Below are positions 4,742-6,819 of a stretch of DNA of 46,519 nucleotides, one piece after another. The position numbers and the translations under genes are program-made. The notes under the pieces are model-generated. The model did no database searches. It saw only the letters and a program-made list of their open reading frames with translations, and had not been told where the DNA came from. Source of the stretch: Chloroflexota bacterium (lineage in GTDB: Bacteria > Chloroflexota > Anaerolineae > Anaerolineales > Villigracilaceae); contig VGNO01000003.1 of the NCBI GenBank assembly GCA_016865985.1, positions 1-46,519 of the forward strand, in the 5' to 3' direction. Each line of letters starts with the position of its first letter. Position 1 is the stretch's first letter.

Positions 4742-4990
4742 TCACACAGGAGTGACAGCCTTTTCCATAGCCAGGCAGGCAAGTTCCTTTAGCAGCAATG
4801 GCAATTCCAGGTCGTAATGTTGGGCGGCCTCTTCCAGCGTGCAGTAGGGCGCAACCGGGCAGCCGACACAGTCCGTATTGTATTTCAGGAATAGTTCGAT
4901 GGCCTGCGGCCAGGTTTCCAACACCCTGGCGACGGTTGTGCTGGGAAGGATGCCGGCTGTTCCTCCGTTCGGTTTCAGATCCATAATCAT
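4742..4990 (-). CDS. DUF1858 domain protein (redox-disulfide CxxC type)
   Basis: STTVARVLETWPQAIELFLKYNTDCVGCPVAPYCTLEEAAQHYDL matches the DUF1858 pattern. Confidence 0.75.
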   Translation of the reverse strand: MIMDLKPNGGTAGILPSTTVARVLETWPQAIELFLKYNTDCVGCPVAPYCTLEEAAQHYDLELPLLLKELACLAMEKAVTPV

Positions 4991-5031: not shown

Positions 5032-5240
5032 CTAGTAGATATCGTTCACCGTGTTATAGACATTGAACTTGCCGGTGGGGGTGACCAGGTTTTCGATGCG
5101 CGCCTTCTCTTCCAGGGTGGCGTCATCGTAGATGACAATCTCGCCGGTCTCACCGGGTTTGCTGGCGTCGCCCCACAGGCTGACCCACACTTCGGTCCCG
5201 TCCCGGTTGTATTCGAAATGCACCGCCCGGCCATACGGCG
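5032..5240 (-). pseudogene. nirS: C-terminal remnant of cytochrome cd1 nitrite reductase (NirS-like)
   Basis: Frame giving YGRAVHFEYNRDGTEVWVSLWGDASKPGETGEIVIYDDATLEEKARIENLVTPTGKFNVYNTVNDIY-stop, the distinctive NirS C-terminus (…TPTGKFNVYNTxxDxY). No start or upstream NirS sequence; preceded in another frame by a Crp/Fnr gene. Confidence 0.8.
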
Positions 5241-5747
5241 GCCCACCTGTGCCACCAGCCGCAGCAGGGCACGCGCCACCCGCTGTTGGGTGCGCTCGGT
5301 GGCAAGTTCCCGGTAACGGTCCTGTATTTCCTGGATGTAGGCGCTCATCATGCTCATCAGGTCGAATGCAACCCCCGTCTTGTTCCCGCACAGGCGTTTG
5401 AAAAGACCTGTCTCCCAGGCCAGCGCCTGGCTGTCTTCGGAGGCTTCGGCGCTGATCGGGTAGGCGGCTCCTGGTTCCGTCAGGCCGATCGCCCCAAACA
5501 TCTGGCCCGGCGCGATGACACGCAGGATGATCTTCTGCCCGTCCACAGTCACCTGGCTCAGGCGGACACACCCGCCGACCAGGACATACAGGTGGGTGGC
5601 CGGGTCTCCCTGCTGGAAGAAGTAACAGTCCTCTTCCACCAGGCGCAGTTGCCCGGCAGCCCGGATGTTTTCCAGTTCATCAGGGGAGAAGCGCCGGAAG
5701 AGTGCAGTGCGGCAGAGGATGGCGGAAAAGCCTGTTACCGGGAGCAT
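5046..5747 (-). pseudogene. Crp/Fnr-family regulator, C-terminal HTH domain missing (fused out of frame to nirS tail)
   Basis: cNMP-binding domain and dimerisation helix (…LFRRFSPDELENIRAAGQLRLVEEDCYFFQQGDPATHLYVLVGGCVRLSQVTVDGQKIILRVIAPGQMFGAIGL…RTQQRVARALLRLVAQVGRR), then non-homologous residues from ~5245 downward; no HTH. Confidence 0.8.
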
Positions 5748-5778
5748 GTTTCTCCGGAGTATATCACCAACCCGGATA

Positions 5779-5809
5779 TTTACGGCATTATGGATAAATG
5801 AAGTATAAT
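5779..5809 (+). promoter_or_regulatory. possible promoter of cytochrome/ACIII operon
   Basis: TATAAT at 5804-5809, weak TTTACG at 5779-5784 with a 19-nt spacer. Confidence 0.35.
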
Positions 5810-5844
5810 TTAATCTAACCCAGATGATCTAATAGCGGAGGAGG

Positions 5845-6819
5845 ATGCTTGTTATGAGGCTGTGGAAACTGATCGGATTGTCCCTGTTGCTGGCGACAGC
5901 CGGCTTTGCTTTGGCAGAATTCCCCAGTGTTCGAGCGCAGGCTGAGCCCCCCGCCGCGTCCGATATCATCCGTGGGGCGATCCTGTACGATAACTGGTTC
6001 GCCGCCTTGGGCGTGGATGCCCCGCCGGGCGACATGCCGATCTGGTCCCGCCAATCCACCAATTCCCGCTCCGGTCCCGATACCTGGCGCTGTGTGGAAT
6101 GTCATGGCTGGGACTACCGCGGCGCGCAGGGGGCTTATGCCTCCGGCTCGCATGCAACCGGTTTCCCGGATGTGATGGCGCTTGCCGCTGAAATGGGCGA
6201 GGCGGATCTCCTGCTCCACCTGGGAGGGGAGAATGACCCGGCGCACGACTTTTCCCCCTGGCTCGAAGAGACTTCCCTGCGGCAACTGGCCGCCTTCCTG
6301 AAAAACGGGTTGATCGACGACAGCCTGTATATCGATGTCGTTTCGCTCAAGGTAATCGGCGGGGATACCGAGTATGGCAGGAGTTTGTATGATTCCACCT
6401 GCGCTTCCTGCCATGGCCTGGACGGGGAGCAGATCGTCTTCCGAACCGAGGGTGTGGATGAGACCCTGGGGAGCATCGCCTACCGCGACCCCTGGCGCTT
6501 CCTGCACCGCACCCGCTTCGGCGTGGCGGGGACCGAGATGCCGGTCGGCGCGGAACTCGGCTGGTCGGCGGCCGACGGGCGGGACGTGCTGGCGTATGCC
6601 CAGACCTTCCCCGGAGGGCGGGAGGCGCAAGTCCCGGACCCGGCGTCGGAACAGGCCGAACCGGCGCTGCAGGTGGGAGGTCCGGCTACGAACTGGTGGA
6701 CCGGCATCCTGACCGGCCTGGGGGCGTTCCTGGGAGCCATGGGCTATGCCCTGGTTTTCATCGGCGGCTTTATCCTGATCGGTTTCATCGTCGTCACGGT
6801 CCTGCGCAGGCGGAAATAG
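5845..6819 (+). CDS. diheme cytochrome c, signal peptide and C-terminal TM anchor
   Basis: CVECH and CASCH heme c motifs; C-terminal hydrophobic helix ending VVTVLRRRK. Confidence 0.85.
   Translation: MLVMRLWKLIGLSLLLATAGFALAEFPSVRAQAEPPAASDIIRGAILYDNWFAALGVDAPPGDMPIWSRQSTNSRSGPDTWRCVECHGWDYRGAQGAYASGSHATGFPDVMALAAEMGEADLLLHLGGENDPAHDFSPWLEETSLRQLAAFLKNGLIDDSLYIDVVSLKVIGGDTEYGRSLYDSTCASCHGLDGEQIVFRTEGVDETLGSIAYRDPWRFLHRTRFGVAGTEMPVGAELGWSAADGRDVLAYAQTFPGGREAQVPDPASEQAEPALQVGGPATNWWTGILTGLGAFLGAMGYALVFIGGFILIGFIVVTVLRRRK

Follow-up and report, generated by a model that had tools for sequence, protein, structure and literature searches.

The window, a 46,519-nucleotide stretch of the genome of an uncultured Chloroflexota bacterium (contig VGNO01000003.1), carries on its minus strand the front part of a Crp/Fnr regulator gene abutting the 3′ end of nirS, the gene for cytochrome cd1 nitrite reductase, followed by an intact DUF1858 gene, whilst an ACIII-type cytochrome operon runs divergently from the regulator (Table 1). 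The Crp/Fnr frame opens with an ATG at position 5747 and stays open to 5046, giving 233 codons. In a profile search the encoded protein matched the N-terminal cNMP-binding domain (PF00027, E 1e-17) and no HTH family, the C-terminal DNA-binding domain being absent, which bears out the preliminary description of a Crp/Fnr protein without its HTH. Only the first ~170 residues are Crp, and the ~60 out-of-frame residues that follow matched no protein family above the cut-off. The nearest orthologue found (72% identity over residues 1–172) lies in the Chloroflexi metagenome-assembled genome JACQYE010000011.1 (locus L048, taken as genome G099 as the match coordinates are identical) and is intact, with PF00027, HTH_Crp_2 (E 2.7e-17) and the Crp HTH.

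Table 1 Features at the crp–nirS locus (window coordinates).
Feature	Position	Strand	Evidence and remarks
DUF1858 gene, intact, third member of the crp-nir-DUF1858 module	4742..4990	-	PF08984, E 3e-10; 66% identity to G099
nirS 3′ end, last 67 codons and TAG stop, startless, undecayed	5032..5235	-	PF02239 positions 316–368, E 5e-17; 88% amino-acid identity to G017 NirS; 0/35 invariant columns changed
233-aa open-reading frame	5046..5747	-	crp remnant plus ~60 out-of-frame codons through nirS DNA
Putative deletion junction	5235..5240	-	crp match ends at 5238, nirS match begins at 5237/5235; a few shared bases at most
crp/fnr remnant, HTH missing	5239..5747	-	N-terminal cNMP-binding and dimerisation part; PF00027 only; 72% amino-acid identity to intact G099 Crp up to residue 172
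Intergenic region separating the crp remnant from the divergent ACIII-type cytochrome operon	5748..5844	.	Arrangement as in G099 (L048)
Intact membrane c-type cytochrome gene that opens the divergent ACIII-type operon	5845..6819	+	PF00034/PF13442; 77% identity to G099

The nirS tail is read in a frame different from that of Crp and translates into 67 residues (YGRAVHFEYN...NVYNTVNDIY), its stop lying 41 nt ahead of the DUF1858 gene. A NirS C-terminus after the frame switch had been predicted at ~63 codons; its identity stands, its size is 67 codons plus the stop. Its match to the C-terminal part of the d1 propeller scored 58.9 bits (E 5.1e-17) against a cut-off of 25.5 bits, and the 88% identity to the G017 protein covers residues 738–805 of the latter. 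At the DNA level, over 203–205 bases, it is 87% identical to the intact nirS of G061 and 85% identical to that of G017, both from other genera. Whether the tail resembles a cd1 nitrite reductase had been named beforehand as a point on which the description could fall, and both PF02239 and intact NirS proteins were matched. Judged from the strength of these alignments, the Crp and NirS matches cannot be chance. What precedes the tail in a complete enzyme is missing: PF02239 positions 1–315, the cytochrome c domain and the heme and active-site histidines are absent, with no other part of NirS in the genome.

The switch of frame also exists as described, though at 5235–5240, where the DNA homologies end, and not at about 5236–5245. 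In the DNA search, Crp matches stopped at query base 510 (window position 5238) and nirS matches began at 511–513 (5237–5235). Before the junction the nirS of the closest relative reads ...ACGTACGGCCGG and the window ...CCGTATGGCCGG, in which a CG is perhaps common to both. The window contains no N bases, and G+C is alike on the two sides of the junction (0.63 and 0.59). Comparison of 100-base stretches around the would-be deletion ends in eight relatives carrying crp and nirS together revealed shared words of at most seven bases, which is far short of the overlap needed by an assembler. Deletion via a direct repeat was considered and rejected, given these short words and the presence of GGCCG still on both the crp side and the nirS side.

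Intact counterparts of the arrangement, as expected of the relatives of a pseudogene, were found in 13 related genomes in which crp, DUF1858 and a nitrite reductase occur together (loci L039, L042, L044, L046, L048, L091, L092 and L096–L101). The fnr-nirS-DUF1858 operon proposed as the ancestral state is present in exactly that order, which is also the order of the window, in G031 and G022, whilst five genomes (G017, G010, G096, G094 and G109) have crp-DUF1858-nirS, five have crp with nirK (G099, G004, G014, G020 and G082), and G157 carries both enzymes in tandem (crp-DUF1858-nirK-nirS). The matched crp stretch of G096 was flagged with an internal stop, yet its aligned translation shows none. 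In G099, the genome with the closest Crp, the ACIII-type operon of the window likewise runs divergently from the intact crp, which is followed by nirK, a 361-aa gene and DUF1858. The points that match the two junction ends lie 2173–2235 bp apart in G031 and G022, 2734–2819 bp in genomes with an intervening DUF1858 and cupredoxin-containing nirS, and, in G157, 4317 bp. Across the 13 genomes, NirS and NirK are exchanged at the same place of the crp/DUF1858 module. A separate observation concerns the divergent intergenic region, where, upstream of the ACIII-type operon, GATAAATGAAGTATAATTTAAT in the window (5748–5844) and GATAAATGATGTATAATTTAAT in G099 (L048 5269–5390) differ in a single base, a possible conserved promoter going by this comparison.

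The abutting homologies and the intact crp-nirS-DUF1858 order in relatives support the single deletion proposed earlier to have joined fnr/crp to the 3′ end of nirS, and we consider the locus to be the scar of one such recent event with a probability of about 0.74, a figure that includes the case of a deletion carried by only part of the population. The ancestor would have possessed a crp-nirS-DUF1858 nitrite-reductase module divergent from the ACIII-type cytochrome operon. The deletion would presumably have occurred in the cells themselves, without long homology at its ends, and have spanned ~2.2–2.8 kb if nirS alone lay between, and up to ~4.3 kb if nirK did too. It would have removed the Crp HTH, the nirS start and nearly all of nirS, sparing the last 67 nirS codons and DUF1858. 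As the cut is out of frame, it would have left a nirS tail lacking start and heme ligands and a piece of Crp expected not to bind DNA, and control of nir would presumably have been lost.

Neither remnant shows relaxed constraint. Among 31 NirS tails, the 35 columns that do not vary in the others are unchanged in the window as well, and the dN/dS of its tail against G061 is ~0.06 (0.042/0.694); the Crp remnant has changed at two of 27 otherwise invariant sites, compared with 0–3 in intact Crp proteins. Assuming the branch of the window to be half of dS, full neutrality along it would have given ~28 amino-acid changes, set against none at the 35 invariant residues, and the time without constraint is less than ~11% of the branch (95%). 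Relaxed constraint would be expected in an old pseudogene only, a recent event not yet showing decay, and the undecayed tail therefore implies either a recent deletion or an assembly join. A decayed tail could have shown the deletion to be real, but no decay was found, which only bounds the age of the event.

So young an event would suit a deletion that is real yet polymorphic, with the assembled strain deleted and others in the population retaining an intact nirS. The bin (G000) holds no intact allele, however, and we regard this form of the deletion as a minority possibility. The main rival reading, likewise unlikely, is that the organism has an intact crp-nirS-DUF1858 module in which a chimeric read or the assembler fused two sites 2–3 kb apart. 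The bin is a draft, metagenome-like assembly of 421 contigs (93.6% completeness, 5.2% contamination), most relatives bearing the module have it intact, and the undecayed state of both the tail and the Crp part is as compatible with an artefact as with a young deletion. Against an artefact, there is no gap in the window, no long repeat at the corresponding sites in relatives (no shared word >7 bp), and no trace of the removed part anywhere in the bin, even at E values up to 10, although the missing 2–3 kb could lie in an unbinned contig.

The single-deletion reading also has a larger variant, in which a tandem nirK and nirS were lost together. The gene order of G157 offers a model for it, and G099, whose Crp is the closest, has nirK at this site, but the order in the window, with DUF1858 last, occurs with nirS alone in G031 and G022, and we find the variant rather improbable. 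Finally, that the truncated Crp or the nirS tail still functions, for example as an HTH-less sensor partner or a new fused protein, is very improbable: the Crp frame is open and its N-terminal part conserved, yet the ~60 residues appended to it come from nirS read out of frame and match no family above the cut-off, the tail lacks a start and a heme-binding domain, and the short time since the deletion explains the conservation.

The bin was searched for another nirS, as the preliminary description had suggested, and contained none, nor any nirK or nosZ. A full-length NrfA is encoded at G000:C86:8365–9489 (PF02335, E 9e-125); its contig could in principle be foreign, given the 5.2% contamination, and an NrfA-type match is found in most sampled relatives, so that this copy is unremarkable. 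The earlier statement that the lineage lost nitrite reduction is therefore too wide, as the loss concerns the NO-forming route and not all nitrite reduction. By gene content, NO-forming nitrite reduction is missing and ammonification is encoded, and the organism would presumably rely on NrfA to reduce nitrite to ammonium. Heme d1 genes (nirF, nirJ), proposed as a further test of lost denitrification, proved uninformative. Among sampled genomes of the order with a full cd1-type NirS (G002, G008, G010, G017, G022, G023, G024, G031 and G036), none had a full second PF02239 hit of NirF type, the single-contig G008 included, none had a siroheme decarboxylase (PF17805) beyond one sub-cut-off hit in G031, and none had a NirJ hit reaching the cut-off. 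The absence of these heme d1 genes from the bin thus says nothing on loss, because the intact nirS-bearing relatives examined lack them too. Schwartz et al. (PMC8756737) found no other denitrification genes at distances up to 20 kb from nirS genes of this kind.

The closest known counterpart of the nirS remnant is the C1-C2-NirS fusion nitrite reductase of Chloroflexi (Schwartz et al. 2022, PMC8756737; clade 1g of PMC10999283), with whose C-termini the 67-codon tail aligns end to end, the nearest at 87% DNA identity. By sequence, the NirS proteins of the relatives carry the N-terminal C1 cytochrome fused to C2-NirS, a part that falls in the deleted region of the window, which retains only the last 67 codons, without start, cytochrome domains or heme ligands. 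We also observed the C1 cytochrome fused to NirK in L097 (G157) and L057 (G007), with 48% identity to the C1 domain of NirS. Such a fusion was suspected to be an assembly artefact (PMC8756737), but it is probably real because two genera carry it with different sequences.

The regulator, for its part, recalls Crp/Fnr regulators of nitrite reduction of the DNR/NnrR type, as crp in the relatives likewise adjoins nir and DUF1858, with the difference that the copy in the window has lost its HTH. DNR (3dkw) gives E 6e-15 against the intact orthologue of G099, other Crp/Fnr structures scoring higher, and the lost Crp may have activated nir in the manner of NnrR/DNR. The NnrR regulon of Bradyrhizobium includes a DUF1858 gene adjacent to nnrR as well as a nearby nirK (PMC6710368), so the association extends beyond Chloroflexota; our literature search found no Chloroflexi paper linking crp, DUF1858 and nir. 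The crp-DUF1858-nirK loci of related Chloroflexota (G099, G004, G020, G014 and G082) share regulator and DUF1858 with the window, and G099 the adjacent ACIII operon as well, but at the position of the nirS remnant they encode the copper NirK. It is conceivable, if doubtful, that within this bacterial order unrelated nitrite reductases (NirS, NirK or both in tandem) replace one another at crp-DUF1858, the pair acting as a fixed regulatory dock, the window then representing a lineage just after the joint loss of enzyme and regulator, with NrfA ammonification kept.

As biology, the loss is ordinary. Scoring above the Pfam cut-off, the short nirS tail would lead automatic annotation to call the genome nirS-positive, which is a warning. 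As a dated scar, the locus would record the loss of NO-forming nitrite reduction from a genome in one step, along with its regulator. Comparison with relatives shows a single regulated locus serving both NirS and NirK in this clade; the feature is moderately useful as an annotation warning and as a marker when the two genes are compared at one site.
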